DNA of 64,000 nucleotides from Psychrobacillus soli. GTDB lineage: Bacteria; Bacillota; Bacilli; Bacillales_A; Planococcaceae. The translations under genes and the position numbers were made by a program. Below the pieces are notes generated by a model that was not told where the DNA came from, made no database searches, and saw only the letters and a program-made list of their open reading frames with translations. Location of the stretch: assembly GCF_006861775.1 (NCBI RefSeq), contig NZ_VDGG01000018.1, positions 1 to 64,000 on the forward strand, in the 5' to 3' direction. Each line of letters begins with the position of its first letter. The stretch's first letter is position 1. Below are positions 38,298 through 60,252 of this stretch, piece by piece.

Positions 38298-39182
38298 TTA
38301 GAAAGAATCTTTACCTATGAGTTCTAATGTGTAATCAATTAAATTATCATAATGGAGAATCTTAATACCACTCGTTCTTTCTTCATTTCTTCGTATTTCA
38401 TAGGCCTTCTCACTACTACACCTATAATGCGCTCTTCTCCCGGCAATAACAATATAATGTCTCCTTGATGAATCGTTTAGATAGAATTCATTTGGTAAAG
38501 ACTGATTAGTTTTAATAGCTTTATTAAATTCTATGGACATATTATTAAAATGTACTTCCAATGTCCTTCTCCAATCATTGACCTGATTGATTCCCTTTCT
38601 ATAGGATTGAGCATAGTCTGCAGTTGTAGATAAAAAAGCATTATCTGACGGGTGTTCTAATTCAATAAATATAAATTCATAACCTCCAGATCCTTTTCCA
38701 ACTAATAAATAATCTACTCGATGCGCTCCTGCCAATGGGAATTCCTTAAATAGATAGGCTTCGTGATGTCCGAAATTGTAGAATTTAAATATAGATGCTA
38801 TCAAAATGTAGTATTCATTTTCGTTTATGAAATTTAACATTTCTTGTTCATTAGGATTTGTATCTAATTTTTTTTGGTATTCGGTACACATAGTTTTAAT
38901 GGCTTCAGAGTCTTTTAACTCTACTATATCCAAGTAATTATTAGGAAAAAGATGTTCAAAATGACGTGCAGCTTTTGGATATTCTCTAAATTTATTTACC
39001 CTTCCAAATCGTTTTCCAGTGAGTTCAGAATCTCTTATTTGTATGTATTTTTCTTCATCATCTATAGATAAAATTCTATAATCTTTTTCTTTATATAGTT
39101 TCAAAATATCCCCACCTAAGTTTAGTCCAAATAGCCCAGTCATCTTACTAGAATCTGGTGTTAAAATAATACAAGTGTACAA
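38298..39182 (-). CDS. sduA: Shedu-type anti-phage nuclease (DUF4263)
   Basis: Up to 294 residues. The C-terminal half carries the DUF4263 PD-(D/E)XK core: D157 in AHRVDYLLVG and E174-x-E176 in IFIELEHPSDN, followed by YRKGINQVNDWRRTLE, RRHYIVIAGRR and GIKILHYDNLIDY, the typical Shedu tail. Single-gene Shedu systems stop phages by cutting DNA. The usual lysine is replaced by glutamate and histidine in this branch. The true start may be internal, for example a TTG after GGTGGGG near residue 27. Single gene in the defence region. Confidence 0.8.
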   Translation of the reverse strand: MYTCIILTPDSSKMTGLFGLNLGGDILKLYKEKDYRILSIDDEEKYIQIRDSELTGKRFGRVNKFREYPKAARHFEHLFPNNYLDIVELKDSEAIKTMCTEYQKKLDTNPNEQEMLNFINENEYYILIASIFKFYNFGHHEAYLFKEFPLAGAHRVDYLLVGKGSGGYEFIFIELEHPSDNAFLSTTADYAQSYRKGINQVNDWRRTLEVHFNNMSIEFNKAIKTNQSLPNEFYLNDSSRRHYIVIAGRRAHYRCSSEKAYEIRRNEERTSGIKILHYDNLIDYTLELIGKDSF

Positions 39183-40733: not shown

Positions 40734-43700
40734 TTAATTTACTCCTGATAATTTTATAAACTTCGAGAAACTTCTAAATAATTTTTTAAAGTCGATATCA
40801 ACTTGAACAAATTCTTCTAAGAACACCGGAACATTCCCAGTCATCTCAAATAGATTAGAACTCTTATCAATACTATATATTTTACTACATATTGCGGCAT
40901 GTAATATAGCACATAAATCTTTTTCTAGTTGTATACGTTCGAAATGTCTATACAATTCTAATTCACTAAAAGCACTATAAAATCCATCGGGTAATGAAGC
41001 AATCTCTACTGGTGATAAACCTTGAGAAATTATAAATTCTCTATCTTCTTCTGATAAATATCCATTTTCGTAATTGCTAAAGTCAGCTTTTTTACTTCCA
41101 AAGTCGTTTTCAGGAACTAATTGAATTAAACTTTCATATTCTCCATTAAATATCTCTAAATTCGAAGTGCTTTTTAAAAGTATTTTATAATTGTACTTTA
41201 ACAATAAACTAAGTGCTTTCTTGGAAAACCTAGAATACAGTAAACTTTCCAAATCAAAATACTCTATCATTTTAGAATAATTATGTGCATCTATTAATTC
41301 ATAAAACTCTTGCCAGACCATTTCATCATTTAACAAGTTTATTTTTTCTGATGTTAAATGGAAGATATTCAATTTTAATTCAGAGTTCTTTAAATATATA
41401 TTTTTAATAAAATACATATATTCTTCAGAATTAAGCATTTCAACATACTGATCCAATATATGCCTAATGCCCTTCTCGGATTTAGATTGAAATGAATCAA
41501 TTATTTCTACGCTTTTTTCAATTTCTAAATAACCTTTTCTTTGAAATAAAAGTAGAGTTTTCCCAATGTTATTTACAGTATAGTCTTTTCTAGCATAATA
41601 ACTTGTAAATAATTTATATACAGAGGGAACATCTATTCTAGTTTTTCTAAATAAACTTAGTCTAAAATAATCCTTAATATAAGATAATAAATTATAGGAG
41701 TCTTCGCTATTAAAATGTTCAATAAATTCCTCCATTGTAAAATTTAAAAATTCATTTTCAGTAAACAATAAACCTAACGTTTTCAATTTATATTTAGTAG
41801 CGCTAAGTATAGAATGAGCAAAAAATGATTTATGGCCATATTCTAATAAAATTGCTTCTACAAAAAATGTTATATCTTCTTTATTATCAATAAAATCGTG
41901 TATTTTTATTTTCCAACTTTGGAACTTCTCGTTATTGTCAACTTTATGAATATAAATCCCAATAAAAAGTTCAATTAATATATCTCTAAAATCAAATTCA
42001 CTTCTATTTAATAATACCTTCTCCACATTTTTAAAATTTATTGGATTATATAGTCCATAAAAATATTTATCCTCTTCTTCTATTTCAGAGAGTAATTCGT
42101 TATAAAATTTTCTTGTATCATAGTAATCATCTGATGTAACATTTTCTAAAACCTTATAGTTTCCTTCTAATACGAAGTCTAACATTCCAAAAAGATAACC
42201 ACTACTCGTTACATCTTCCTCAGAATAGCCATTGAATAACAATGTGTTAACATAAACATATAAAAACTGTTTTAAACTGGAAATATGATCTCTAACCAAG
42301 ATATTTATAATTATTGATAAATCATAGTAATTATAAACTGTTAAGCTATTTGGATTAATCTTATTAAGACTATGTCTTAGCTGCTTATAGAATTCTTGAA
42401 TTGCTTCAATGTCAACAGTTCCTTGTATCCACTCATCAAAAAAATCTATATCAGCATACTTTTTTATAACTGCTACATGTTCATCATGACTAAATTCAAA
42501 AAAGTTATATCTGCTAATATATCTTTTTTCTCCTAGAAGTATTGAATTATATACTTTTCTTTTTATCTCCTGAATAATTTCCTCGACAGTTTCATTTTTA
42601 TATAAATTTATTCTAAGATAGGTATTTAAACTATCATGCATAAGTGTTATTCGATTAAGTTTAATCTCAAATAAATAAGGGTGATCTTTAATAATCTGTT
42701 TTATTAAGACACCTCCATATGTTCCCAATAAATCATCAAATTCCGAACACATAAAGTACGAATTAGAAGTTAAAAAAATTGCGAGAGATTCTTTATTACT
42801 GTAATTATTAGTAATTAGCTCATAATATTCATTAAGATCTTTTAATTGAGGTAACTCAGGTAGAACCTTATATTCCTTATAATGATTAGCTAAAAATCTC
42901 ACTAAGATTGGATATCCCTGCGTTATCCTGTAAATTTCTTCAATGATTTTATATTCAGATAAATGATATTGTTCTGCTAAAAAATATGATGTTTGTTCAT
43001 TATTCCAATTATGTAATTTATACTTCTTCCATTCAACCGCAGTTCTAAGTGGCCTAGAGAAAACAATCACTTTAACATCTTTACTACCCAAGATATTTAT
43101 AAATTCAATAAATCGGCGAAGCTCAATTGAATTATAATTTTCCACATGATCAAGTCCATCAATAACTAGTGTAATTGATCTAGCATTTAATTCGAAAGCA
43201 ATCTCATCTAAACTTTTCTTAGCCAGTTTACTAAAAAGTTCTTTTGTAATATTACTAATGAAATTATCATATCTTAATCTATCTTGATATTGGGGGTCCT
43301 GGTTAGATATCCAAAATCTATAAATTATCTTAGAACTTTTTACTTCTAAATTGTTCACCAAATGACTTTTACCTATTCCTGGTTTCCCTTCAACAAAAAT
43401 CACTTCATTTTCATCAATTTCAATTTTTTGTACTTCTAATGTAGAATCGATTAATTCAGTAGAATATATTTGGATTGGTGGCAATTCATGAATAGCTATC
43501 ACTAATGTCCTTTCATCAAACCTTCGCTCAAAAAACGTTTCTATTAAAGACATTCTTGTTCGATCAATTTCATATAATGATTCGAGCTTATCTCTTATTT
43601 CCTCTCTAGAAATAGAAACAATGTGAACATTATCTTTAAAATAACTTGGGAACCCCATAACACTCGAATTAGGTTCCAAATCTATACTCTTAATAAAAAT

Positions 43701-44009
43701 TACATTTTCTGCGTTAGAAAATTTATGTGGGCTAGATTTAATTTTCACATTATCTCCATCTACTTTGATATCAGAAATCTTAACGGTATGGAAATCTTTC
43801 ATTTGACAATAAATACTCGATCCATCTTTTTTTATAAGTACTAAGTCATCAAAATTATGATCAACATCTGCCTCAATTTCTAATCCATTAAATTCCCTTT
43901 CAACATCCATAATTGCCAAGAAATAAAATGCTACTAACTTTTGATACGAATATCCGATAATAGAGTTTTTAGCAGCTTTCACTCTCAAAAAAAGTCCTCC
44001 TTCGGCCAT
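40734..44009 (-). CDS. STAND-type NTPase with N-terminal PD-(D/E)XK (Cap4/DUF4297-like) nuclease
   Basis: A 1091-residue protein. Residues 15-75 resemble a Cap4-type nuclease: GYSYQKLVAFYFL, D54-D55 in HNFDDLVLI and Q69-x-K71 in YCQMKDF. A P-loop follows, Walker A EGKPGIGKSHL (207-217) and Walker B TLVIDGLDHV (280-289), then sensor-like VIVFSRPL and a winged-helix-like region. The C-terminal 550 residues are helical and leucine/tyrosine-rich, probably a ligand-sensing array. The plan fits STAND (Avs-like) immune sensors that cut DNA once a phage product binds. It follows an HNH gene by 30 bp. Confidence 0.8.
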   Translation of the reverse strand: MAEGGLFLRVKAAKNSIIGYSYQKLVAFYFLAIMDVEREFNGLEIEADVDHNFDDLVLIKKDGSSIYCQMKDFHTVKISDIKVDGDNVKIKSSPHKFSNAENVIFIKSIDLEPNSSVMGFPSYFKDNVHIVSISREEIRDKLESLYEIDRTRMSLIETFFERRFDERTLVIAIHELPPIQIYSTELIDSTLEVQKIEIDENEVIFVEGKPGIGKSHLVNNLEVKSSKIIYRFWISNQDPQYQDRLRYDNFISNITKELFSKLAKKSLDEIAFELNARSITLVIDGLDHVENYNSIELRRFIEFINILGSKDVKVIVFSRPLRTAVEWKKYKLHNWNNEQTSYFLAEQYHLSEYKIIEEIYRITQGYPILVRFLANHYKEYKVLPELPQLKDLNEYYELITNNYSNKESLAIFLTSNSYFMCSEFDDLLGTYGGVLIKQIIKDHPYLFEIKLNRITLMHDSLNTYLRINLYKNETVEEIIQEIKRKVYNSILLGEKRYISRYNFFEFSHDEHVAVIKKYADIDFFDEWIQGTVDIEAIQEFYKQLRHSLNKINPNSLTVYNYYDLSIIINILVRDHISSLKQFLYVYVNTLLFNGYSEEDVTSSGYLFGMLDFVLEGNYKVLENVTSDDYYDTRKFYNELLSEIEEEDKYFYGLYNPINFKNVEKVLLNRSEFDFRDILIELFIGIYIHKVDNNEKFQSWKIKIHDFIDNKEDITFFVEAILLEYGHKSFFAHSILSATKYKLKTLGLLFTENEFLNFTMEEFIEHFNSEDSYNLLSYIKDYFRLSLFRKTRIDVPSVYKLFTSYYARKDYTVNNIGKTLLLFQRKGYLEIEKSVEIIDSFQSKSEKGIRHILDQYVEMLNSEEYMYFIKNIYLKNSELKLNIFHLTSEKINLLNDEMVWQEFYELIDAHNYSKMIEYFDLESLLYSRFSKKALSLLLKYNYKILLKSTSNLEIFNGEYESLIQLVPENDFGSKKADFSNYENGYLSEEDREFIISQGLSPVEIASLPDGFYSAFSELELYRHFERIQLEKDLCAILHAAICSKIYSIDKSSNLFEMTGNVPVFLEEFVQVDIDFKKLFRSFSKFIKLSGVN

Positions 44010-45182: not shown

Positions 45183-45398
45183 CTACTCCACTGTCCTTTT
45201 GAGACAGGGGTTGGTATTTTCATAGTAAAGATAGGCTTTTTCAAAATTGTCTTTGTATATAAAACGAGGGTAATTTAACATACTAGATGTTTTTTTAATC
45301 GTTATGATTGCTTGATAAACAAACTCTGCTGTCTTATTCGCATCCGCACTATAGCCAATAGTTTCAAGATTAAATAGGACTAAAATACAACCAGACAT
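45183..45398 (-). pseudogene. Truncated paralogue of the 104-residue protein
   Basis: The stretch SSMLNYPRFIYKDNFEKAYL and YYENTNPC parallels SSTLKSPRTIYKDNFIKVCP and YYERW in the gene at 45882. The N-terminus is shortened and no ribosome site is visible, so this is probably a decayed second copy. Confidence 0.5.
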
Positions 45399-45881: not shown

Positions 45882-46196
45882 TTATCGTTGATCTATTTGA
45901 TAGCTAACTGCTGCCATTATATAAACAGAGTTACCTGTAATTGCAGTAATTTCTTTGCTTATCCCTTTTTCACCAGCCATCCATCTTTCGTAGTAAGGGC
46001 AAACTTTTATAAAATTATCTTTGTATATAGTACGAGGGCTTTTTAGTGTACTAGATGGCACCATCTCTGATTCATACACTGTCAAAATCTTGCCATTGGA
46101 TACCAATTTGAAATTAAGACCAGTTTTTGTTTTTAGTTCTATTGGTTTTTCCAAGCTTTCTACTAATAAACTTTCCCATACGTCAACTGCATTCAA
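45882..46196 (-). CDS. Small protein, 104 residues
   Basis: TTG start with AAGGAGG seven bases upstream. Begins MNAVDVWESLLVESLEKPIE and contains SSTLKSPRTIYKDNFIKVCP, a block repeated in the fragment at 45183. Alpha/beta composition, soluble. Family not recognised. First gene of a small minus-strand group with the 99-residue gene. Confidence 0.6.
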   Translation of the reverse strand: MNAVDVWESLLVESLEKPIELKTKTGLNFKLVSNGKILTVYESEMVPSSTLKSPRTIYKDNFIKVCPYYERWMAGEKGISKEITAITGNSVYIMAAVSYQIDQR

Positions 46197-46504: not shown

Positions 46505-49500
46505 TTACTCACTACAAATAACTTTTACATTTATGCCACTTGTTTCTTTAATGAAACTTTCTGTTACCCCTAACAAGGTTAAAATATCTTCACCTACTCT
46601 TTCTTTAGAAATACTTGGTTGAACAATAAATATCTCAAATTGCATAGGTATTCGTCTCTTTGCTTTATCTTTTAAAACTTCTAAATCTTCTTTAGTTCCT
46701 TTTTCTAATCTTGAACAAGTTTTTCCATCTCTATTTTTTTGTATCCTTCTTAACAAATGCTTAAAGAATTCCTCCCCTTTTTTATATTTCCAATGAATTG
46801 ATTTTTGAGCCTGTCCACACACTTGATATAAATTATCGATACTATTAGATACTTTTCCTCCAGCTGCATATTTCAAATGATATAATTGAATGGTTAACAA
46901 GTTATTTTCTTCTTTTATTGTTAAAATATCCGCTATCTCTCCTGAACCATCATCGTCATAAATGACTTGATAATCACCACTTTTAAGATACTCAATCATT
47001 TTGTATTGGATAGAATCGGTCCTTTTTGGATCAACCTGTTGAGATTCTTTAGATAACTCTGTCCCCCTCCAATCCCTTGAAATTAACAACTCTTTAGGGT
47101 ACTGATTGACCGTATGCTTTAACTGAATAAATTCATTGCCTGTAAGTGAGGACCCATCCGCAAACCAAAATGTGGGTAAATATTCATATAAGAATTCATC
47201 TAGATTAAATGTTCTAGTACCCTTTTTTACTATGATAGCCTCGGCAGAAATAATCTTAAAAGTATGATCTGGAATAACTAAATCTTCCTCTATTAATTTA
47301 GATAGATTAAACTCAATGATTGCTTCGTGTATACCAATCGTTATTTTAAAAGTTATTTTTTCATCTACATCATAATTCTGAATTTGTAGTTCTACCTCGG
47401 ATAAATTTCTAGAAGTATTTTCACCGTATGTGAAAATACATGTAGTTTCTGATTCAAATAAAATTTCATAATCCCAATCTATTGCTATCGGTACTAATTT
47501 CGGCATTTCATAAATCATAGTTGGTACAAGGCATTCACTTAACACTTGATTGGGATCAATATCAGGATTTAATATTTTTTTTCCTATATTATCGCTCCAA
47601 ACTTTTAGCCCTTTAACATTGCCTTGTAATTTAGTCCAAATTCTCCCTTTATAAGAACATCCTATATTTACTGGTTCTCCGTTTTCAAATCCCGCCCCAA
47701 CAACATAAGCCTTTTGACTTCTCTGTTTCTCCATTAGTGGTATTGCTTCTCCTAAATCACTTCCAACACTCATTCTATAGCGGATATCTTTACCTAGATG
47801 CAATTTTAATCCAACATTTTGCAACTTAATTCGTTTAATATTATATAAAGCCTTGAATACCTCCATTTTATTTATTAAACGTGGATTTTTTATTACTTTA
47901 TCTGCAATATCTTTATATAAGCTTGAATTATCTGTACTATTTATAAATAGTAATTTATCTGTTGGATTCCACAACAAAATCAACATATTCCACGTTAAAT
48001 TATAGGTGTTTTTATCCGATAACCAATCTAATTTAGACTTTTTAGCATATACAACTATAGCTATTTTTTCATCGGGATTCTCGTCATAAAATACATATTC
48101 ATAGTTTTGATTCTTTGTATAAATAGACTTTATTTCTTTCGGGTTCCAGTCTGTATATTGAGTTCTATATACCACCGTGCTTAGTTTTGGTCTAATGTTT
48201 TGAAAAGAAAAAATAGATTGATTTAAATTAGCAAATCCTTCTAAGAAGGACTTGTATTCCATTTCATCATCGATATAGGCACTACTATAATCTGCTAAGA
48301 GTTCATTCCAATCTGCGTCACTACTATACAAATCTTCCAAAGCACCAGAAACGTTTAAATCGGCTATATTGGCTATAAATGCTGCTTTTCCTAAGTTCGA
48401 ATCATATTTTGTGCGTGTAAAGCGTCCTGTAAATTGTAGAGTAACCGGTAAACTTTTTTTTATATCGTGGAGAGCAGCTATTTTAAGTTCTGGGAGATCG
48501 AATCCTTCCCCCAACATGTCTACGCAAATAATTATCTTATGTTTTTTTAGTAAAATATCATTGTATATTTCTTTTTTATTAGGGATTTTAGAATAAATTA
48601 AGACAGGATGTAAATGTTCATATTGTTTGTAAATACTATATACTTCCTTAGCTCTTTTCTTATCGGCACATCTTGCCATCAAAATATGGGGGAAACCTTC
48701 TTCTAAATCTGTTTCTAATCTTAGAACAGCTTTTTCAGCAATTAGTTTATCTGCTAATTTCAAATCGTATTCTTTGATTGGTAAAAACTCAATTTCAGTA
48801 AAGTATCCATCTTTTTGTGCCTCAATTAAGGGAAAGTTAAAGATTATTTTTCCATCTAAATTTTTCCCATCATTTCTAAATGGTGTGGCTGTATATTGAA
48901 TAATTTTTTCATCATCAAATTTCTTTCGAAAACTTTCCCATGTACTTGCTTTAATATGATGGGCCTCATCAATGAATATGTGTGTACATTTTTCAGAAAG
49001 TAGCAATTGTTGTTCTTCACTCATCATTGAAATTAATGGCATATTAGTTACTATTACATTACAACTACCTATAAAATCATCTAATTCCTCAACCGATTGG
49101 AAGCCATTATGTAAGATTCCGACTCTAGGATATCGTATACTTTCATTTACGATTCCAAATTTTTTTAGTAAGCCTAACGTAATAAACTTCTCTCCAACTT
49201 GTTGTCTTAGTGCGTCACTTGGGACTGTAACCAATAATTTACTACATCTTAACGAAATCAAAGTTGAAAGCATAGTCTCTGTTTTTCCTGTTCCTGTAGG
49301 CATAACCACAGTAGCAATTTCTTTTGAAACTTTTACATGACTATGTATAGCATGTAATGCAGCAATCTGAGGTCTTCTTAACCCTTTTTCATTATCTTCA
49401 ACGGATTCTTCTTTAAAATTAAAATTATTTTTCCAACTGTTAATTATTTCTTGATTAGTAATCTCATCTTCATCTTGTGGATGCTTAACCCATTTTTTTA

Positions 49501-49768
49501 TAGTTATCTCAGATCGATTAGCTCTTAAAACGTTCAAACTATCTTTATCTACCAAAAGAACATACTTTGCATCTAGGTCGAATTTAGATTTATCTTTAGT
49601 AAAGCAATATATTACTGTATCTACTTTAATATTTATATATTGAGTCTCTACTTTATTTATCGCACCTTCAATTACTCTTTCCTCATCTATAAGTTGTTTA
49701 ACTATGTTTCTACTTCCACTTTTTTTATAATAAATCTTTTCATATACCGGTAAATTAATTGTTACCAT
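46505..49768 (-). CDS. SF2 (DEAD/DEAH) helicase with C-terminal PD-(D/E)XK-like domain
   Basis: A 1087-residue protein. After a 130-residue N-terminal region come the helicase motifs: Walker A MPTGTGKTE (156-164), DEAH (267-270), YTATPFR, and QFTGRFTR (motif VI). A beta-rich middle region follows. Near the C-terminus DDDGSGEIADILTI and LTIQLYHLKYAAGGKVSNSI (about 920-965) fit a restriction-nuclease-like fold, with the nearby DNLYQVCGQAQKS conserved in defence helicases. TAGGAG is upstream of the ATG. It starts 135 bp after the reverse transcriptase stop with no strong terminator in between, so they may share a transcript. Likely anti-phage. Confidence 0.82.
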   Translation of the reverse strand: MVTINLPVYEKIYYKKSGSRNIVKQLIDEERVIEGAINKVETQYINIKVDTVIYCFTKDKSKFDLDAKYVLLVDKDSLNVLRANRSEITIKKWVKHPQDEDEITNQEIINSWKNNFNFKEESVEDNEKGLRRPQIAALHAIHSHVKVSKEIATVVMPTGTGKTETMLSTLISLRCSKLLVTVPSDALRQQVGEKFITLGLLKKFGIVNESIRYPRVGILHNGFQSVEELDDFIGSCNVIVTNMPLISMMSEEQQLLLSEKCTHIFIDEAHHIKASTWESFRKKFDDEKIIQYTATPFRNDGKNLDGKIIFNFPLIEAQKDGYFTEIEFLPIKEYDLKLADKLIAEKAVLRLETDLEEGFPHILMARCADKKRAKEVYSIYKQYEHLHPVLIYSKIPNKKEIYNDILLKKHKIIICVDMLGEGFDLPELKIAALHDIKKSLPVTLQFTGRFTRTKYDSNLGKAAFIANIADLNVSGALEDLYSSDADWNELLADYSSAYIDDEMEYKSFLEGFANLNQSIFSFQNIRPKLSTVVYRTQYTDWNPKEIKSIYTKNQNYEYVFYDENPDEKIAIVVYAKKSKLDWLSDKNTYNLTWNMLILLWNPTDKLLFINSTDNSSLYKDIADKVIKNPRLINKMEVFKALYNIKRIKLQNVGLKLHLGKDIRYRMSVGSDLGEAIPLMEKQRSQKAYVVGAGFENGEPVNIGCSYKGRIWTKLQGNVKGLKVWSDNIGKKILNPDIDPNQVLSECLVPTMIYEMPKLVPIAIDWDYEILFESETTCIFTYGENTSRNLSEVELQIQNYDVDEKITFKITIGIHEAIIEFNLSKLIEEDLVIPDHTFKIISAEAIIVKKGTRTFNLDEFLYEYLPTFWFADGSSLTGNEFIQLKHTVNQYPKELLISRDWRGTELSKESQQVDPKRTDSIQYKMIEYLKSGDYQVIYDDDGSGEIADILTIKEENNLLTIQLYHLKYAAGGKVSNSIDNLYQVCGQAQKSIHWKYKKGEEFFKHLLRRIQKNRDGKTCSRLEKGTKEDLEVLKDKAKRRIPMQFEIFIVQPSISKERVGEDILTLLGVTESFIKETSGINVKVICSE

Positions 49769-49903: not shown

Positions 49904-51286
49904 TTATTTCATTCTCTTCTGTACTCTACTCCAATGTCTTTTAACCTGCCTTCGAATCATACTCCTTACTGGTAATTGATTCATTTTTCGATGAGCTTTA
50001 TATGCATAAGAGATGAAATTACCATAGTCTTTATATTGATACCCTAAATGTGTGTATAAGTCATAAAGCTCCTTTTTAGGACCTGGACGACCAGTAGCAA
50101 ATGAAATACGTTTGCTTGTATTCGCCTTCCTATATGCCCTTGAATAATATTTAAATAGGCTCTTTTCACGGATTTTTATTAACTTGCCATTCGTTACAAA
50201 GCCCAAATAATCTAATGTTGCTGGCTGCAGTTGCTCATTTAAAATGTCGCCATTTTGATATAGCCGAATTTCTGTTTTTTCTTTTTGAATATCTAGACCA
50301 TCCTCTTTATATTTCTCCATGATATCTAATAACTCATCTCGTATTGAATGGACTGTATCTGTGGACTGATTTGAAATGGGAATAACTAAAATTAGATCAT
50401 CACAATATCTTCTATATAGGGATTTCTCATGTTTTTGTTTTGCCCACTGCATCATTTCTTTATCGAAGTCTATTAAATGAACATTTGAGCATACTGCGCT
50501 CATTCCAGACCCCTGTGGTATCCCAAAATTTTTTCTATTTACATGCAGATGTTCCTTTTTAAATTCTCTAAACTCAATCGGCTCCATTATTTTAGATAAT
50601 TTTATTTTTTTTACCTTCTTCTCACCGTGCTTAGTCTTTAAAAAATGATTAATATCAGTCTTATTGACATATGTAAATTTCGTTAAGCTTCTAAATACCT
50701 TGTACCAATCATCTGATAAGCTATCCACATTCAATACACGCTTTATATTGTTTTTTAATGTTTTATGTGAAATATTATCAAAGAAGCTCGTGAAATCCAT
50801 TGAAATAATTACCGCATGTTCTTGCTTAAATAAATGTTCAAATACTTCATGCGCAAAGTTCACACTATTCTTACCTTCTTTATTATTTCTATAAGCTACT
50901 GCTATTTCATCGATATTATTGTCTTCAGCAAAAGTGTTATAAGAATTGTTCAATAAATCACCGTAATATTTATAGATATAGCTATCTTTATGTGCTGAGT
51001 AGAAAATTTTTCTTACTTTCTTTTTCTTCTCTTTCCTTTTGCTCTTCTTCACATGATCGTATAATTCTGGAATTGTTACGTACTTTTTAAAAATTATTTC
51101 AAAGTGAATGGACGGTAAAAAAGCATATGAAGCTACCCACTCACTATCTTGGAGTTTAGACTTCATATGCTCTATTTTAATACGTTCATCGAAATGTAAA
51201 TAATTCTTTTGTTTATACTTTGACCAGTTGATATTAGAAGAGCTAGGAAGGTTATGTAATCGTCGTGGTCCCTTACTCCGTTTCAT
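49904..51286 (-). CDS. Defence-type reverse transcriptase (DRT2-like)
   Basis: A 460-residue stand-alone reverse transcriptase. Motif A is SMDFTSFFDNISH (D164, D170), motif B-like GIPQGSGMSAVCSNVHL (255-271), and the catalytic motif is YCDD (294-297). The N-terminal WSKYKQKNYLHFDERIKI and AYRNNKEGKNSVNFAHEVFE blocks fit a group of bacterial defence RTs rather than retrons (no YADD/VTG) or group II introns (no maturase domain). YCDD is the motif I recall for DRT2. AGGAGG is ten bases before the ATG. The 280-nt promoter-to-ATG leader with strong hairpins is the expected place of the templating ncRNA. Confidence 0.8.
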   Translation of the reverse strand: MKRSKGPRRLHNLPSSSNINWSKYKQKNYLHFDERIKIEHMKSKLQDSEWVASYAFLPSIHFEIIFKKYVTIPELYDHVKKSKRKEKKKKVRKIFYSAHKDSYIYKYYGDLLNNSYNTFAEDNNIDEIAVAYRNNKEGKNSVNFAHEVFEHLFKQEHAVIISMDFTSFFDNISHKTLKNNIKRVLNVDSLSDDWYKVFRSLTKFTYVNKTDINHFLKTKHGEKKVKKIKLSKIMEPIEFREFKKEHLHVNRKNFGIPQGSGMSAVCSNVHLIDFDKEMMQWAKQKHEKSLYRRYCDDLILVIPISNQSTDTVHSIRDELLDIMEKYKEDGLDIQKEKTEIRLYQNGDILNEQLQPATLDYLGFVTNGKLIKIREKSLFKYYSRAYRKANTSKRISFATGRPGPKKELYDLYTHLGYQYKDYGNFISYAYKAHRKMNQLPVRSMIRRQVKRHWSRVQKRMK

Positions 51287-51299
51287 AACAGAACAACCT

Positions 51300-51566
51300 C
51301 CTAGCCTAATGTTGTGTCATTTATTCATAAGAATAAATGCTCTGCTGACCACTATATTTCACTTTGTTAAAAGCGAAAATCTTTAAAACACTCAATTATA
51401 ATTACATTAAGGTGGTAATTACAACTGTGATAAGTTTGACTGACTTGCCAGACCTGCAACTACTGTTACTGTATCTAGAAATCATATGGCAGCTTGGTGA
51501 GGTTCTTAACGTTAAGAAACTTGCCAAGCATGAAACCTATCTCTCTCATAACTATTTTTATGAGAC
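51300..51566 (-). ncRNA. Candidate DRT-associated ncRNA / structured leader
   Basis: Transcription predicted from about 51566 would give about 280 nt before the RT start codon. Hairpins: CTCATAA/TTATGAG (51545-51564); the palindrome TTCTTAACGTTAAGAA (51503-51518) nested in GCTTGG/CCAAGC (51492-51529). The central 51420-51540 part is richer in G+C than the flanks. The plus strand is also free of stops from 51364 to 51591 in one frame. Known DRT2 loci carry such an ncRNA upstream of the RT; identity here is inference. Confidence 0.6.
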
Positions 51567-51572
51567 TATTAA

Positions 51573-51601
51573 ATTATACAAGCTATACTAATTTTAGTCA
51601 A
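51573..51601 (-). promoter_or_regulatory. Sigma-A promoter for the RT leader
   Basis: Minus strand TTGACT (51601-51596), exactly 17 bp, TATAAT (51578-51573). A near-consensus promoter placed 287 bp upstream of the RT ATG. Confidence 0.85.
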
Positions 51602-51991
51602 TTTAACCTATTTGAAATTATCTAATAATAACAAAAATTAATATCAAATCAATAGAAAAGCACTCTATCTTATCTTTTTAAAATAATACAGCTTTGCGTT
51701 TCAGCCCTTATCACAAACTTAATTTAATCTACATTGGTTTACACGATAAACCCCTGTTTCTCGCTAACATAATGATAATGTTAAGTCTTTCTGCTCTGAA
51801 GTGTTTTGTGATGTCATATAAATTCCCTACTTTTGCTTTTACAATTTCTACTTTTCATTTATTTTTATTTTCCTATAATCCACATATAACCTGCAAATCA
51901 TAATGTCATTCTAATAGTTATTCTATGTATAAAAAAACCAATGGCTCCAATACTGGATATCAATAATCCTTTATATTGGTGGTGTTTTGGT

Positions 51992-53476
51992 ATGAAAGTA
52001 GAATATGATGACATCAGATACACTCAAGTTGAACAGTTACATCAAGAGGGTAACTCTTGTACTAAAATAGGTGAAATATTAGGCTTGAATCGAAAGAAAG
52101 TATCAAAATATTTGCAAGAAGAATTGGGTTATAAGATTAGGGTTATTGCTGGAAATCATAACAAGGAAGAGATCACAAGAAAATATCTTGAAGGAGAAAA
52201 ACTTTTTATCAGCGGGCTGTCTATAAATAAAATTACAAAACAGTTAAAAATACACAAGAAAAGCTTTTCTAATTGGTTACAAGAGGAAAAGGGACATACT
52301 GTTAAACCCAAAAGAGGATTAACTATTCAAGAACAAATTAATCAAAATGAGAAATTGGGATTTGGGGAAAGTCTAATAAACGAGGGTCATTCTTTTAGTT
52401 ATGCTGTAAAAAAATCAAAAATAAACTACTATAATTTTAAAAAATTCTTAAAAGAAAAAGGTTATGAACTCTCCTTTTCAAATCGAAAATATATTTTATC
52501 AGAAAATACTTTCGAAAATATTGATACAGAAGAAAAGGCATACTGGTTAGGTTTTCTTTATGCAGATGCATATGTTTCAAACAATTGCGGATATGTTTTA
52601 GAGCTTACTTTAAAAGCTGCGGACTTAGATCATATAATTAAATTTAGAAATTTTATGAAATCGGATCACCCGATAATGCCAAAGGTTGTAGAATTAGATG
52701 AAAAAAAACATAAAGCCTATCGATTGGCCATTTATAGTAAGAAACTTGTCATCGATTTAATAAAACAAGGCTGTATACCTTGTAAATCACTAGTGCTAAA
52801 ATTCCCATCATCATCTATTGTTCCGCCAAATTTAGTTAGACATTTTATACGTGGTTATTGGGATGGGGATGGAACAATTTGCTTTACTAAACTAAAAAAA
52901 TTAGGATTTAAATACTGTTCATTAAGTGTAATATCTACAACAGAATTTGTTGAAGAAATTAGAAACATTTTAGAATTACCGAAAGTTAAGTTACAAACAG
53001 AAGGAAATGCCTATTCTCTAAGATATGCAGGTACAAATTTGCCAATTAAAATATTAAATTTCATTTATGAAGATGCATCAATTTATCTTCCACGAAAGCA
53101 TGAAATCTACAAAAAATTTTTATCCGCTAGAATTAATTTTGAAACGAAAGTCAATGAACAAAAAGAATTCCGGACTTCCATATTAAATAAGGCTACAGAT
53201 TTATTTAATAAAGGGAATTCAATTAGAACCATAAGTACTTTATTAAAATTAGACCGTACTATGATATCTAGTTGGTTATACTTAAATGGTATTAATGTAC
53301 AGCTAAGTAGACCCTTTTCAGAAGAAGAACTAGCTATTCAAAGGGTAAAATTATCACAAGCAGAAGAATTTTATCAAAGATACAATTCTGTTTCAAAAGC
53401 CGGTAAATTAGCCGGTATAAATTACCACAGATTTAAGCTATATTTAATTCAGAAGGGTTATTCTTTGGAGTTTTGA
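51992..53476 (+). CDS. LAGLIDADG endonuclease-like protein with helix-turn-helix modules
   Basis: A 494-residue protein (511 if the ATG at 51941 is used; GGTGG before 51992 favours the shorter form). The centre holds two LAGLIDADG-type motifs, YWLGFLYADA and FIRGYWDGDGT, the latter with catalytic acidic residues. On each side lie repeated helix-turn-helix units (NSCTKIGEILGLNRKKVSKY, LSINKITKQLKIHKKSFSNW, NSIRTISTLLKLDRTMISSW). No intein splice motifs or host gene surround it, so it is free-standing. It may act as a homing endonuclease or a domesticated site-specific nuclease. It is divergent from the RT unit. Confidence 0.78.
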   Translation: MKVEYDDIRYTQVEQLHQEGNSCTKIGEILGLNRKKVSKYLQEELGYKIRVIAGNHNKEEITRKYLEGEKLFISGLSINKITKQLKIHKKSFSNWLQEEKGHTVKPKRGLTIQEQINQNEKLGFGESLINEGHSFSYAVKKSKINYYNFKKFLKEKGYELSFSNRKYILSENTFENIDTEEKAYWLGFLYADAYVSNNCGYVLELTLKAADLDHIIKFRNFMKSDHPIMPKVVELDEKKHKAYRLAIYSKKLVIDLIKQGCIPCKSLVLKFPSSSIVPPNLVRHFIRGYWDGDGTICFTKLKKLGFKYCSLSVISTTEFVEEIRNILELPKVKLQTEGNAYSLRYAGTNLPIKILNFIYEDASIYLPRKHEIYKKFLSARINFETKVNEQKEFRTSILNKATDLFNKGNSIRTISTLLKLDRTMISSWLYLNGINVQLSRPFSEEELAIQRVKLSQAEEFYQRYNSVSKAGKLAGINYHRFKLYLIQKGYSLEF

Positions 53477-53922: not shown

Positions 53923-54777
53923 TTATTTAAAGAACATTTCAGCGATTCGATCGTTTTCTTTTTTTGAAAGTAGTCTACGAACACTTTCTTCAGGCATTGA
54001 TATAGGGAAGGTCATATTTTCTATTCTACTTTCAATTCTTCCAGCTGGATATTTTGTACTTAATTGTTCAACTGGTATGTTAGAAGTGATAATTGTTAAC
54101 CGATTATAATTCATCCGCTCTTCAAGTATTTCTGTTAAAATTTCTTCCGACCATTCTGTTGATTTTTCAACACCCAAATCGTCAATTACTAATACATCTG
54201 CTTCTTTAAAAGCTATTAGTAAGTCATAGGATGTAGTCTTAGAATGTTGATTGAACGTGTTTTTAATTTCACTTAACAGATTCACCGATGAAATATAGAG
54301 CGGCTGAACATTATATTTTTGTATTAGTGCATTGGTAATACTAATAGCTAAATGTGTTTTTCCAGAACCTTTTATATGACTATAAAAATATAAACCTTTT
54401 CCCATTTCTCTCAAATCATAGTATTTTTCAACGAATCGAATGGCTACTTTCTTTGCATACTTTGCCTTATCCACATTAATTTCGTCTTTATAAACAGCGG
54501 GGTCAAATTCTTTCACAGTAACATTAGCATAGTCGTCAGGAATTCGTGCGGATTGGATTTTTCGCATTAGTTGTTTTTGTTCTAAGCAAGGACAGATTAC
54601 TCCAACTGTTGAAAGGTCTTCTTTTACAACAACGATTAATCCGCTGCCATCGCACTCGTGATAAGGGCATTTATCAGAAATCACAGTCATTCTCCCAGTC
54701 GGTATTTTGGGTTTTACGGAATCTTTCAAAGTATTCATCTCCGGTATGTTCTTGAGTATGTGTTGAATTTTGTCCAT
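53923..54777 (-). CDS. DnaI/DnaC-like helicase loader ATPase
   Basis: A 284-residue AAA+ protein. A zinc-binding N-terminal region has CPYHECDGSG and CPCLEQ. Walker A reads HIKGSGKTHLAISI (about 148-155) and Walker B is DVLVIDDLGVEK, with a sensor region TIITSN. In phages and plasmids this loads the replicative helicase at the origin. AGGAGG lies nine bases before the ATG, although that start is 104 bp inside the preceding gene, so the two genes overlap strongly and are translationally coupled. Confidence 0.85.
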   Translation of the reverse strand: MDKIQHILKNIPEMNTLKDSVKPKIPTGRMTVISDKCPYHECDGSGLIVVVKEDLSTVGVICPCLEQKQLMRKIQSARIPDDYANVTVKEFDPAVYKDEINVDKAKYAKKVAIRFVEKYYDLREMGKGLYFYSHIKGSGKTHLAISITNALIQKYNVQPLYISSVNLLSEIKNTFNQHSKTTSYDLLIAFKEADVLVIDDLGVEKSTEWSEEILTEILEERMNYNRLTIITSNIPVEQLSTKYPAGRIESRIENMTFPISMPEESVRRLLSKKENDRIAEMFFK

Positions 54778-55678
54778 TTAATTTATCCTCCTGTTGTTGT
54801 TTAACTATCGTTGCTTGATCGAATATATAATTTGCAATGTATTGAAAAGATCTAATTTGATCACGTTGATGTCGAGGTTGAAACTTTTGATAGCATTCAT
54901 TAATCCACTTAACAACCTGATGCATCGGCCAATTTCGTTTCACAACATCCATGATAGCTTCCTTATCAGATTGGGTTAGAGTATTTCTTTGGGAATGTTT
55001 TAAATATGTGTTGCTAATGGTTTCAAATGATTGATTTGTTTGATTATTAAACCCCTCGTCTTCATCAGATTGTTTTGATAAGGAAGAATTCTCTGTAGTA
55101 ATCTCTGAATTAGTCTTTGAAGAAATCTCTGATATTGCTTCGTAATCTGTGTGGTTCGAAGCAATCTTTGGTTTATTCGAATCACAAATATTGAGATTCA
55201 AATCTTCTTTATTACGGTTCGACACTTTTCGTTTTTCATATCGTTTTGATAGTTCATCCCCCTCAAGTGGATAGCCTAATTCTTCTAGGTCATTCATCAC
55301 CTTTATTAGGTTCACACGATATTGATACGTTTTATCCCATTTATATTTAGGATTACGTCTTTGCTCCAAATATTTTTTCTCCACCAGTGCTTTTAAATAA
55401 CTACGAATTGTATTTTCACTTACACCTAACATGACTTCTTCAGCTAAATCCTTTGCTGTTTTATAAATCCAGCCGAATGTCGAAGAGTGTGTTGTGTTAA
55501 TTCCAGTTGCGGTCTTTCGATTGTTTTCTTCTTCAATATATCGGTCAATATCTTTAGTTCGGTTTTGCCAGTATAATAGCTGACCAAATAGGATAGCTTG
55601 ATAGGTATTCCCCAATAAAACTACAAGTTCTTCTCGTATTACAACTCTTTTTAATTTTCTCGATTGCATTGTGTTCAC
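54674..55678 (-). CDS. Replication initiator-like winged-helix protein
   Basis: A 334-residue protein. N-terminal winged helix (about 10-120: VVLLGNTYQAILFGQLLYWQ, GVSENTIRSYLKALVEKKYL), a Ser/Asn/Glu-rich linker and a C-terminal DnaD-like region (AIMDVVKRNWPMHQVVKWIN, SFQYIANYIFDQ). This design is found in replication proteins of plasmids, phages and integrative elements and fits with the loader gene that follows. No replicase is encoded nearby. Confidence 0.75.
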   Translation of the reverse strand: MNTMQSRKLKRVVIREELVVLLGNTYQAILFGQLLYWQNRTKDIDRYIEEENNRKTATGINTTHSSTFGWIYKTAKDLAEEVMLGVSENTIRSYLKALVEKKYLEQRRNPKYKWDKTYQYRVNLIKVMNDLEELGYPLEGDELSKRYEKRKVSNRNKEDLNLNICDSNKPKIASNHTDYEAISEISSKTNSEITTENSSLSKQSDEDEGFNNQTNQSFETISNTYLKHSQRNTLTQSDKEAIMDVVKRNWPMHQVVKWINECYQKFQPRHQRDQIRSFQYIANYIFDQATIVKQQQEDKLNGQNSTHTQEHTGDEYFERFRKTQNTDWENDCDF

Positions 55679-55807
55679 CTCTGTTTTTGCTTTTAGCTAT
55701 AATTTATTATCTATTGTTATAATTAGTGTACTTATTTTGTAAATGAGAATTTGTAAGAAAACCTAAGCGGTGAAGTATTTACAACTTACTACCGCTATAG
55801 TTTCAAC

Positions 55808-56287
55808 TTATACATTTGCTTTTGATGCTGATTTTAGCTTTACGATGATAGGTTGATATTTCTCTACAAATTCAAGAAGAGCAAGAGAATGCAGTAAAGT
55901 AATCGGTAATTTTGTTTCGTAAGCAATCTGTTTAAACTTCTCATCAATCTTTTTATCAGTCTTATAAGCACGCGTTACGGATTCACTTTTTGGCATTTGC
56001 ATAAGAGCAGTAAAAAGATCGACATCTTGTTTATCCACATCGCTTACCTTATTTCTCTTCTTTTTGACATCAGGTCTACTTACTCTTCCTTTTTTCGTAA
56101 TATCAATGTCTGTAATCTTTTTATCTACATCCCCTACATATCTCCATTTTTCGTTTTCATCTTGCTCATAATCAAAATCAGCAAGTCTATTTTTTAAAGT
56201 CTTTTCTGATAATCCACACTGTACGCTTAACTCTGCGATACTTATATTCTCTGTATTTAATTTTTTAACTACTTCATCCGGTGTCAT
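55808..56287 (-). CDS. Helix-turn-helix protein of the replication module
   Basis: A 159-residue protein whose N-terminus ISIAELSVQCGLSEKTLKNR is a helix-turn-helix. A charged linker (VDKKITDIDITKKGRVSRPD) leads to a helical C-terminal region (ITLLHSLALLEFVEKYQPII). It could bind the adjacent repeats and control copy number or partition. GGAGAATTC precedes the ATG. Not assigned to a named family. Confidence 0.6.
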   Translation of the reverse strand: MTPDEVVKKLNTENISIAELSVQCGLSEKTLKNRLADFDYEQDENEKWRYVGDVDKKITDIDITKKGRVSRPDVKKKRNKVSDVDKQDVDLFTALMQMPKSESVTRAYKTDKKIDEKFKQIAYETKLPITLLHSLALLEFVEKYQPIIVKLKSASKANV

Positions 56288-56293
56288 GCTGAA

Positions 56294-56376
56294 TTCTCCT
56301 TAAAATTATTATTGGTTTATCGAATTGCTGAAACATTATAACTTCGGTTTTACATCGTTTTAATAGGTAAACTAAA
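56294..56376. repeat. Long direct repeat, copy 1 (origin candidate)
   Basis: TTCTCCTTAAAATTATTATT ... GAATTGCTGAAACATTATAA ... TAATAGGTAAACTAAAA. The second copy begins 201 bp further on. The segment between the copies contains further partial inverted repeats (TTTAGTTT / AAACTAAA). Confidence 0.75.
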
Positions 56377-56494
56377 AAATATTTTGTTGTTTTTAGTTTC
56401 ACTTGGATAAACCGATGTAGCGTTTTGGGGTACACTGATCCAGTAGTACTTCTTGAATATTATTTTTCATCTAGTCAAGTAATTCCGTTCGGTG

Positions 56495-56576
56495 TTCTCC
56501 TTCAATTTATTTTGGTTAACCGAAATGCTGAAACATTATAACGTCGGTTTTAGATTGTTTGAATAGGTAAACTAAA
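56495..56576. repeat. Long direct repeat, copy 2 (origin candidate)
   Basis: TTCTCCTTCAATTTATTTTG ... GAAATGCTGAAACATTATAA ... GAATAGGTAAACTAAAA, about 80 percent matching to copy 1. The gene-free stretch 56288-57022 lies between the replication genes and the replication-relaxation gene and is the best place for an origin. No gene is seen in 56577-57022. Confidence 0.75.
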
Positions 56577-57022
56577 ATTTTCTTACTAATTTTCTATTTT
56601 TACTTTGATAAATTATGCTAGATTTTTGTATACCTTATAAAAATACAACCTATTAATCAAAATTCTTTCGCTATCCTCAGTGTTGAACAGTAGTTATCTT
56701 CGTATCCCTTTTATGTCTTCGTATCCCAATTCTTTCAAAACACTTTTTTCACTCTATCAATACATACAAAAGTCAATTTTCTTCTGGTCTAGAAACCTCA
56801 TAATAATTAGGTACAATATTTTTTAGAACACCTAAGTAATGAACTTAATACGTTACAAATTGGTCCATATAACCTCATTACTTCGAAAAGTGAATTACTT
56901 GCAGGCACAGCAACGGTTAACGTTACTTTTTATAAGCCGACTATAAAAGCTAAATAAGAGTCTGAAAAGGTGTACTTTTTGAATCAGCATTATTACCATC
57001 AAAAATCAAAGGAGAAATCAAG

Positions 57023-58015
57023 GTGACAGATAAAATCGTATTAAGAAAAGGAAATCGACAACGGTTAGATCTTTATTCAACTGACCTTCATATTCTAGTC
57101 TTTTTAGAGCAACAGAGAATGCTAACCGTTCAACAGCTCTATCAAGTGTCTAAAATACTGTTTAAACAGGAAATGCAAGAATATAGTTTTAAGAACCGTT
57201 TACGAAAATGGGAAGAGTATAAATTAATTAGAAGTGATTTTTATAGCAATGGGTTTAACGGGCAACGTTTTAAATATGTGTCCGTTGGTAGCAAAGCAAT
57301 TGATATACTCATAGAGCAACAGTTATTAGCTCCCTCATACAACAAACAGAAGATTTATAAGTTCAATCAAAAGAAAAATGTGATTCATTTTTTAGCAACA
57401 CAACAGGCTGCACTGAATATATTATTTATGTTAAACAGTAAGAGATTGAAGACCCTCGATGGAAAAGCTAAATATGATATGATTTATAATGTAAATCTAT
57501 TTTCTCATTCTCCCTCGATTTTTCCGTATGAAGAGTGGATACCACATTCGCAAAATCTTCACCAACAAAATAAAGCTGCTTATCATGCAAACTTTGCCAA
57601 GTATAAGAGACACAATCACTCTAATCAACCTTCAGGGAAAACGATGACGATTGTAAAGCCTGATTGGATTATTCGCCTAAAACCTAATGAAGAAAAAGAT
57701 CTCTTTATTAATATCGAATTAGACACTGGTACAGAGCCAATTGCCACATTAGTCGAAAAAGTATTTAAATATGCCATATTAGCGGAAAATAATCCTTCTG
57801 AGCAGCATTTTATGTGCATTATCATAGCAGACGATTCCTTCTCTAGTAGATCTCGATTTGGGGATGGCATCAAAAGAGCAAAAAACATCTCTGAACGCTT
57901 TATTGCAGATGATTTCGTGAAGAAACGAATCAAAGAGACAAGACTCATCCCACTCATCCTACCATTGAAATACGCAGTTCGTAATCTTGTCCAACTATTA
58001 AGTAAATATTCATAG
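57023..58015 (+). CDS. Replication-relaxation family protein
   Basis: A 330-residue protein. The N-terminal winged helix (YSTDLHILVFLEQQRMLTVQ, then FKNRLRKWEEYKLI) and the C-terminal nuclease-like core (VKPDWIIRL, NIELDTGTEPIATLVEKVFK) fit the replication-relaxation family found on plasmids and integrative elements of Firmicutes. GTG start with AAAGGAG eight bases upstream. Placed next to direct repeats that may be the origin. Confidence 0.8.
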   Translation: MTDKIVLRKGNRQRLDLYSTDLHILVFLEQQRMLTVQQLYQVSKILFKQEMQEYSFKNRLRKWEEYKLIRSDFYSNGFNGQRFKYVSVGSKAIDILIEQQLLAPSYNKQKIYKFNQKKNVIHFLATQQAALNILFMLNSKRLKTLDGKAKYDMIYNVNLFSHSPSIFPYEEWIPHSQNLHQQNKAAYHANFAKYKRHNHSNQPSGKTMTIVKPDWIIRLKPNEEKDLFINIELDTGTEPIATLVEKVFKYAILAENNPSEQHFMCIIIADDSFSSRSRFGDGIKRAKNISERFIADDFVKKRIKETRLIPLILPLKYAVRNLVQLLSKYS

Positions 58016-59388: not shown

Positions 59389-60252
59389 ATGGGTCAGAAA
59401 GCAAAGAAGCAACATAGAACTAATCAATTTAATACCTCATCAATTCTATTCATTATAATTTTATTTATTATTGGTTTAGAAACTGCTGGGAGTATTAAGC
59501 CATTACAAGATGATGCTACAACAACAACTGGATTATTAATTTTCCTATTTGCTATTAACATTGGATTATTTAGAAGTATGGAATTACATAAAGCTTTTCA
59601 ACATACACATCGTATTCAATACTGGAAATTTAAACAAAAAAGTATCTTTTGCCTATATCTTTTTTTTACCGTTCTAACGATTGCTGAAATAGTTCCTTAT
59701 GGATGGGTCTTAACTATTTCATTTGTATTAGGTCTAATCTATATCGGAATTCGTTCAGTAAGCACTAAAAAATGCAATATTGGCCTACCTTCTTTACCAA
59801 TAAAAAACCATTCAAAACAGCTTCAAATAGATATTGAAGAAATTGATAAAATGGATGGCAAACAATTTGAAGTATACTTAGCTGAACTCTATGACGGAAT
59901 GGGATATTACACCGAAGTAACCCCTCATACCGATTATGGAGTCGATGTAATCGTTATAAAAGATAAAGTTAAGGCGGGCATACAAGCTAAATGTTACGGA
60001 GAAGGACGGACAGTTGGAGTTGACGCTGTAAATGAAGTCTGTGGAGGTGCTGGTTACTGGAACGTGCATAAGAAATTAATAATTACTAATCGTTATTTCA
60101 CTGAAAAAGCTTTAATATCAGCTCAACATAATGAGATAGAAATGATAGATCGTAATGGCTTAATGCTTTTAATTAGGGAGTACCAAGAATTAAGAATACA
60201 AAAGGGAAGTTCCACTTTCTTAACATTTTTAACTAAGTTCAAACATAACTAA
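59389..60252 (+). CDS. Membrane-anchored Mrr-type restriction endonuclease
   Basis: A 287-residue protein with four hydrophobic segments in the first 122 residues and a cytoplasmic Mrr_cat domain at about 150-270. Catalytic residues are E161 (KQFEVYLAELYDGMGY), D186 (DYGVDVIV) and Q199-x-K201 (AGIQAKCYG), followed by VNEVCGGAGYWNVHKKLIIT. Membrane tethering of an Mrr nuclease is known for a minority of family members and suggests that incoming DNA is cut at the membrane. No methylase accompanies it, so it may be type IV-like. Confidence 0.85.
   Translation: MGQKAKKQHRTNQFNTSSILFIIILFIIGLETAGSIKPLQDDATTTTGLLIFLFAINIGLFRSMELHKAFQHTHRIQYWKFKQKSIFCLYLFFTVLTIAEIVPYGWVLTISFVLGLIYIGIRSVSTKKCNIGLPSLPIKNHSKQLQIDIEEIDKMDGKQFEVYLAELYDGMGYYTEVTPHTDYGVDVIVIKDKVKAGIQAKCYGEGRTVGVDAVNEVCGGAGYWNVHKKLIITNRYFTEKALISAQHNEIEMIDRNGLMLLIREYQELRIQKGSSTFLTFLTKFKHN

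Follow-up and report, generated by a model that had tools for sequence, protein, structure and literature searches.

A DRT2-type reverse transcriptase locus of Psychrobacillus soli with a predicted Neo mechanism, GTTT jump motif and template RNA that extends into the reverse transcriptase gene

The closest described relatives of the locus considered here are DRT2 systems. In KpnDRT2 the template lies between two copies of the motif ACA, and an antisense promoter with 17-bp spacing arises at the repeat junction; the repeat is divisible by three and its frame is stop-free, and the DRT2 repeat lengths given in the same accounts are 111-129 nt (PMC12039810, PMC11100668). The text available from the Tang preprint (PMC11100668) describes Neo as hard to annotate in divergent DRT2 clades, raises alternative mechanisms, and calls the processing step that apportions ncRNA and reverse transcriptase (RT) unknown, and that from the Wilkinson paper (PMC12039810) speculates on different cDNAs and promoters. 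The locus analyzed here lies in a 64,000-nt stretch of DNA, all of which is referred to below as the window; relatives are identified by L numbers. Its RT gene and leader have the following features (coordinates are those of the window).

49904..51286, (-) strand: DRT2-type RT, 460 aa, YCDD active site (ORF from ATG, profile matches)
51573..51601, (-) strand: promoter of the ncRNA/RT transcript, TTGACT 51601-51596, 17-nt spacer, TATAAT 51578-51573 (consensus match only)
51239..51566, (-) strand: predicted ncRNA, ~328 nt (fold, covariation, covariance-model matches)
51545..51564, (-) strand: 5' handle hairpin CTCATAAAAATAGTTATGAG (compensatory changes, covariation)

The ATG-initiated RT is full-length with an intact catalytic site (RRYCDDL), in agreement with the preliminary description of a stand-alone, 460-residue YCDD enzyme, and RRYCDD recurs in seven of the eight rows of the RT alignment, L006 having RRYSDD. 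That description had assigned the enzyme to DRT2 rather than to another class of defense RT by inference, and the PADLOC profiles bear this out, as the best matches were to Drt2 (448.6 and 299.4 bits) and the next class, RT_UG39, reached 66.2 bits. The NCBIfam Drt2 equivalog NF041746 scored 344.5 bits over residues 24-458, under its curated cut-off of 390, which we read as divergence inside the DRT2 family, the cut-off being one that sets naming and marks no biological feature. A profile of the window RT and seven relatives had as its best chains 9lje (E 2.4e-79), 9c0i (4.3e-79), and 9lv7 (7.8e-77), and the chain ranked next had an E-value of 7.6e-12; 9c0i and 9lv7 carry the name Drt2, 9lje is called only RNA-dependent DNA polymerase, and chain 9c0i was assumed to be KpnDRT2 from its name and length. 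Searches of viral contigs returned no relative with the single RT as query and one with the RT alignment as query.

The promoter upstream of the RT was found as described, the end of its TATAAT lying 287 bp from the ATG, and the 5' end of the ncRNA was placed from this -10 element and the 3' end from a conserved AGCTCT. The 371 nt from 51575 to 51205, which comprise the leader and the start of the RT gene, fold at -97.5 kcal/mol relative to -72.9 ± 4.5 kcal/mol for 100 dinucleotide shuffles (z -5.49; no shuffle as low). This, together with compensatory changes among relatives, upholds the earlier proposal of a structured leader. A structured RNA upstream of the ATG is therefore retained from that proposal, but its confinement to the leader is not, as it runs ~48 nt into the RT frame. 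The handle hairpin has compensatory changes in all eight of its pairs (14 rows; 1/500 shuffles as high) and 24 compensatory cells (0/500), with a covariation score of 0.622 vs. 0.328 in shuffles (0/500). These values are from 14 of 18 rows, leaving aside L004 (identical to L003 there), L007, L084, and L085, and L003, L028, and L054 are off by one column in the alignment and so count against the helix.

Rfam gave no match in the window, and even at E 1 nothing in 51150-51650 was matched. Covariance model R1, built on the window clade, locates the 3' part of the structure at DRT2 RT starts, with 17 matches at E ≤1e-3 in 54 sources (including the window itself, which was used in building R1). It matches nine of ten rows of the GTGA clade with E-values of 3e-9 to 5e-4, and the remaining one, L046, only at 0.5. 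In 261 family genomes R1 was found under strict filters in eight, each time where an intact or decayed DRT2 RT begins, and an RT match was present in 20 of the same genomes. The leader is thus conserved among relatives, with covariation and no loss of conservation by covariance model, which supports at the sequence level the upstream templating ncRNA that had been inferred. In L023 and L015 the RT is broken into pieces but the ncRNA scaffold remains recognizable at 91 and 77 bits, respectively; L023 also retains an open 147-nt GTTT unit.

The 5' part of the ncRNA contains the elements expected of a DRT2 template, as follows.

51533..51536, (-) strand: first GTTT copy of the jump motif, corresponding to ACA-1 and part of the template (GTTT pair scan)
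51386..51389, (-) strand: second GTTT copy of the jump motif, corresponding to ACA-2 (GTTT pair scan)
51390..51536, (-) strand: template region, 147 nt = 49 codons (head-to-tail joining gives the predicted concatemeric cDNA)
51521..51526, (+) strand: neo promoter -35, TTGCCA (junction-made promoter)
51397..51402, (+) strand: neo promoter -10, TATAAT (the 17-nt distance to the -35 arises only when repeats are joined)
51409..51415, (+) strand: candidate neo ribosome-binding site AAGGTGG (sequence read)
51427..51429, (+) strand: candidate neo start codon GTG, V-I-S-L in frame (sequence read)
51391..51534, (+) strand: neo frame within one repeat, LNYNYIKVVITTVISLTDLPDLQLLLLYLEIIWQLGEVLNVKKLAKHE(T) (stop-free frame)

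The repeats that bracket the template in the window are not ACA, as in the relatives of KpnDRT2, but GTTT. Read across the junction, the sequence is TTGCCA-AGCATGAAAC/ACTCAAT-TATAAT, followed by AAGGTGG and the in-frame GTG, and the promoter so formed, TTGCCA-17-TATAAT, has 11 of 12 consensus letters. The 147-nt repeat is divisible by three and has one frame that passes through the junction without a stop. The antisense frame is open over most of the leader (a 75-aa ORF), and 23 of the 29 tetramer pairs in the leader with a separation divisible by three are open. Because the frame is open beyond the template, its openness adds little at this locus, where the weight rests on the promoter spacing and the relatives.

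Among those relatives, the GTTT intervals in the window and L002-L006 (six of six) are 147, 147, 144, 144, 153, and 159 nt. A stop-free frame accompanies every one of them, as does a junction promoter with 17-bp spacing, the sole spacing examined in that scan. When spacings of 16-18 bp were allowed and the frame was demanded, 17 of 19 GTTT units of the window clade ranked first in their leader, each with a spacing of 17 bp; there was none for L004 and L085, and L034 gave a 16-bp match with another motif. The 19 units had been chosen for having a GTTT pair, and L008, L034, and L035 are without a clean unit. A selection that ignored the frame, requiring two copies of one tetramer separated by 90-210 nt and a junction promoter with 17-bp spacing that matched at least 10/12, produced 41 candidates from 74 distinct leaders, the window included, of which 39 were divisible by three and 38 were stop-free. 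An open candidate was present in 36 of the leaders and absent by this selection in the other 38. The equivalent averages per set for 40 dinucleotide-shuffled sets were 5.25 candidates, 1.75 divisible by three, 0.125 open, and 0.125 leaders with an open one, and ~7% of the shuffled candidates divisible by three were open. The 17-bp sum is imposed by the criterion and the promoter quality is not, being mostly 11-12/12 where 10 was required. Six of 80 leaders had been dropped as duplicates or too short, L058, a duplicate of L008, was left in, and L015 and L023 are included with their broken RTs. Grouping at 80% identity gave 56 clusters, 29 with a candidate and 27 with an open one, the best candidate per cluster being divisible by three in 27 of the 29. 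Run over the whole 64-kb window on either strand, these criteria returned 31 candidates, eight divisible by three and a single open one, which is this leader.

With the ACA trimer in a similar scan, the published form came out for L128 (an E. coli Drt2, 117 nt) and for L103 (111 nt), in each case with a 12/12 promoter. The ACA form was absent from 10 of the 12 non-Bacillota loci scanned, among which L059 had a promoter of only 6/12 and L099 holds 70 nt of leader. Within the window clade, GGAG (13/16) or GGTG (3/16: the window, L005, and L033) occupies the ribosome-site position, and GTG or ATG occurs at codons 12-15 of the unit in 16/16; this pattern is missing in the units of L007, L084, and L085.

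It is conceivable that the locus is a DRT2 system in which the cDNA templated by the ncRNA is itself the effector, for instance as a decoy, titrant, or signal, with no translated Neo protein, and that base composition has left the frame open. The open antisense frame past the template in the window would fit such a system, as would the changes in the neo frame between close pairs, which are about equal across the three codon positions (10, 8, 10; 6, 3, 3; and 12, 15, 17), with no third-position excess. From this we conclude that the frame is held open, with no purifying selection on Neo residues to be seen. Of the neo-frame residues, 51% are A, I, L, M, F, V, W, or C. Base composition does not account for 39 of 41 units being divisible by three and 38 stop-free when so few divisible shuffled units are open, nor for a ribosome site and a GTG or ATG start in all 16 window-clade units, and the accounts of KpnDRT2 report mutational proof of Neo (PMC12039810, PMC11100668). 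We therefore regard action by the cDNA itself as improbable, and a Neo frame as the preferred reading.

The 3' part of the ncRNA is predicted to form a pseudoknot that shares its sequence with the RT gene, with these elements.

51347..51352, (-) strand: pseudoknot helix A, 5' strand GTGGTC (helix counts, free search)
51265..51270, (-) strand: pseudoknot helix A, 3' strand GACCAC, in RT codons 6-8 (helix counts, free search)
51295..51305, (-) strand: pseudoknot helix B, 5' strand GCTAGGAGGTT, which holds the RT Shine-Dalgarno AGGAGG (helix counts)
51242..51253, (-) strand: pseudoknot helix B, 3' strand AACCTTCCTAGC, in RT codons 12-15 (helix counts)
51278..51291, (-) strand: small hairpin whose loop carries the RT start codon (84.4% of cells paired; the weakest of the three helices)

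Helices A and B cross, and both of their 3' strands are within the RT reading frame. Over 13 rows, 94.4% of the cells of the three helices pair, relative to 39-49% when the strands are slid and 92.8% in shuffles, and five pairs are changed on both sides vs. 1.5 in shuffles (0/500); the count of further pair types is unexceptional (86/500 shuffles). These counts cover 13 of 24 segments, leaving out L005, L033, and nine GTGA-clade rows, for which there is no column-by-column alignment, and the 5' strand of helix A was cut for them by a motif search that is biased towards pairing. A separate free search found a complete helix A partner in 24 of 25 rows, L043 being the failure, where 2.2 were expected from shuffled regions. 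The variants of helix A across clades are GTGGTC with GACCAC or GGCCAC, GCGGTC with GGCCGC, GTAGTC with GACTAC or GGCTAC, GTAGCC with GGCTAC, and TGGGCC with GGCCTG.

The RT gene itself bears the mark of this overlap. At conserved residues of 16 RTs, synonymous differences are 0.157 for residues 2-17 vs. 0.471 for residues 23-460, the former being the lowest of 444 sixteen-residue windows (median 0.471). An in-frame ATG or TTG occurs at one and the same position in all 16 RTs, and length changes there preserve the frame. In the window RT there is no further in-frame ATG, GTG, or TTG before codon 41, which is inside the conserved domain, and translation therefore most likely begins within the ncRNA. 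Chain 9c0i aligns to the window RT only from residue 19, and we take the extra N-terminus to be the ncRNA overlap. In L007, L084, and L085 the same kind of 3' stem lies upstream of a separate start codon, from which it follows that conservation of the stem does not depend on its serving as the ribosome site. We conclude from these alignments that the 3' pseudoknot of the predicted ncRNA spans the RT Shine-Dalgarno, the start codon, and the first ~16 codons. Since it holds both initiation signals, a transcript would serve as ncRNA or as RT mRNA, hardly both, and such exclusivity would make RT output self-limiting.

That folding of the pseudoknot would hide the Shine-Dalgarno and start codon is also what one might expect if the leader were no template and did nothing but regulate the RT gene in cis as its 5' UTR (an attenuator or RT-binding site). 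A plain UTR does not explain why a tetramer is paired, why -10 and -35 elements in the wrong order come to 17 bp across the junction, or why the unit is divisible by three, and it would make the 5' 180 nt superfluous, yet the handle there covaries; we consider it very improbable, and rejected it for this unexplained junction anatomy. An RT derived from a retron or group II intron, to which the common RT fold and weak matches might point, is scarcely credible and was rejected for its low model scores, as models so named reach at most 58.5 bits on the window RT vs. 448.6 for Drt2, 51150-51650 has no Rfam counterpart, and the enzyme stands apart from those clades as judged on profiles rather than an outgroup tree.

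The best explanation of the locus, in which we have considerable confidence, is thus a DRT2 anti-phage system of the Neo type. By analogy with KpnDRT2, a single promoter would produce an RNA in which a 147-nt template is loosely held between a 5' handle and a pseudoknotted 3' scaffold to which the RT binds. When a phage infects, copying of this template by the RT would start just inside the second GTTT and run to the first; the cDNA would then end in AAAC, which would re-anneal on the second GTTT, and synthesis would restart to give tandem-repeat cDNA. Once the cDNA was made double-stranded, every junction would form a TTGCCA-17-TATAAT promoter driving an endless, stop-free, hydrophobic Neo protein, leading to cell arrest. 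The folded pseudoknot would hide the RT translation start, so that the transcript serves as ncRNA or RT message. The anatomy of the sequence, its conservation, and its covariation are observed in the window and its relatives, and the biochemistry, phage triggering, and toxicity in this scheme are carried over from KpnDRT2.

The jump motif differs between RT clades. In a maximum-likelihood RT tree of 62 rows (L083 is misframed with a long branch and its position was ignored), GTTT units fall in the window's clade (support 100/98), which also includes L008, L034, and L035 despite their having no clean unit. GTAT units belong to a Clostridium/phage group (L024, L025, L047, L051, and L082; weak support, 83/35), units with GTGA or its first three bases to a second, mostly Bacillaceae clade (L037-L039, L041, L048, and L055), and ATGA units to Paenibacillus-like rows (L049, L053, and L086); the ACA-negative Acinetobacter loci L059 and L067 give open units with ATCT. 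The distance from the end of the -35 to the junction is 8-11 nt in GTTT, GTAT, GTGA, and ATGA units vs. 6 nt in the ACA form. That both copies of the motif change together supports re-annealing by homology, and ACA seems to be characteristic of the DRT2 subclade that has been studied. Near Bacillota relatives without a clean signature are L008/L058, L009, L010, L013, L034, L035, L040, L043, and L046; the signature of L014 needs a relaxed -35, and those of L004, L006, and L085 were found only with a weaker promoter. L034 and L035 have the overlapping scaffold (47 bits) and a poor junction promoter. L033, on a Lutibacter-named contig (a Bacteroidota MAG), has an RT within the Bacillota GTTT clade and a Bacillota-type unit, consistent with either transfer or a wrongly binned contig.

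The Bacteroidota-type promoter consists of TTTG, 20 or 14 nt, and TAnnTTTG. With one mismatch allowed, eight of 15 Bacteroidota DRT2 leaders (L061, L063, L064, L066, L070, L071, L076, and L077) have open units with a junction promoter of this type. The spacings of 20 and 14 emerged from a scan of 14-25, and L063, L064, and L071 have both; at a spacing of 20, six of nine candidates are open, in 5/15 leaders relative to 0.15 leaders in shuffles. The junction promoter may vary with the host, being tuned to its sigma factor. The boundary of the 132-nt unit of L063 shares a stretch of at least 20 nt, which suggests that this template is itself tandemly duplicated in the genome.

A broader generalization is possible, though we hold it as slightly short of probable: that the DRT2 jump signal is a short direct repeat of free sequence, its copies ~110-160 nt apart and changing together with clade (GTTT, GTAT, GTGA, ATGA, ATCT, or ACA), that the junction promoter persists and in Bacteroidota has shifted to the promoter type of that phylum, and that in the window clade fusion of the ncRNA with the RT gene, by which each transcript would be template RNA or RT message, limits the RT level.

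The neighborhood of the locus is defense-like, with a Schlafen group 3 helicase (33676-35322), a Shedu SduA C-terminal domain (38298-39182), a large AAA/NPHP3_N-type ATPase (40734-44009), a ResIII/DEAD helicase directly downstream of the RT (46505-49768), and an Mrr-type endonuclease (59389-60252). An IstB/DnaA-like ATPase and a replication-relaxation protein (53923-58015) suggest a mobile element adjoining the defense island. Divergent from the RT promoter region, a 511-aa protein (51941-53476, + strand) has several helix-turn-helix matches and a weak LAGLIDADG match. Two small ORFs (45183-45398 and 45882-46196, - strand) contain the similar stretches FIYKDNF and TIYKDNF and are perhaps a decayed duplicate pair.

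These results have consequences for questions raised in the literature. They predict that divergent Bacillota clades share the Neo mechanism with other jump motifs, making both published ideas (alternative mechanisms, and different cDNAs and promoters) testable, and Neo repeats can be annotated without the ACA motif. The overlap of ncRNA and RT gene is a concrete hypothesis for how the two are apportioned from one transcript. Titles and abstract openings in the DRT2 literature, gathered by queries that did not include these terms, contain nothing on other jump motifs or an ncRNA-RT overlap, and priority for either is not certain.

Very probably, then, the locus is a DRT2 system for which a Neo mechanism is predicted and which departs from the known form in its jump motif, repeat length, and gene-RNA overlap. 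As far as the accounts of KpnDRT2 describe it, the two have in common a stand-alone RT and, upstream of it, an ncRNA composed of 5' handle, template, and pseudoknotted 3' scaffold; a direct repeat at either end of the template; an antisense junction promoter with 17-bp spacing; and a hydrophobic repeat divisible by three in a stop-free frame with its own ribosome site. They differ in that the window has the jump motif GTTT where KpnDRT2 has ACA, a repeat of 147 nt relative to the published 111-129, 10 nt of junction past the -35 relative to six in the ACA form (measured on L103 and L128), and an ncRNA that enters the RT frame, the first 18 RT residues being without counterpart in 9c0i. The E. 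coli N921 Drt2 (L128), compared here by sequence alone, has the same signature (117 nt, TTGACA-17-TATAAT, stop-free), and differs in its ACA jump motif. The class 2 DRTs DRT9, DRT10, and DRT3 likewise combine an RT and an ncRNA and make repetitive DNA products, but their RT sequence match to the window is far weaker and the parts of their descriptions at hand mention no neo frame.
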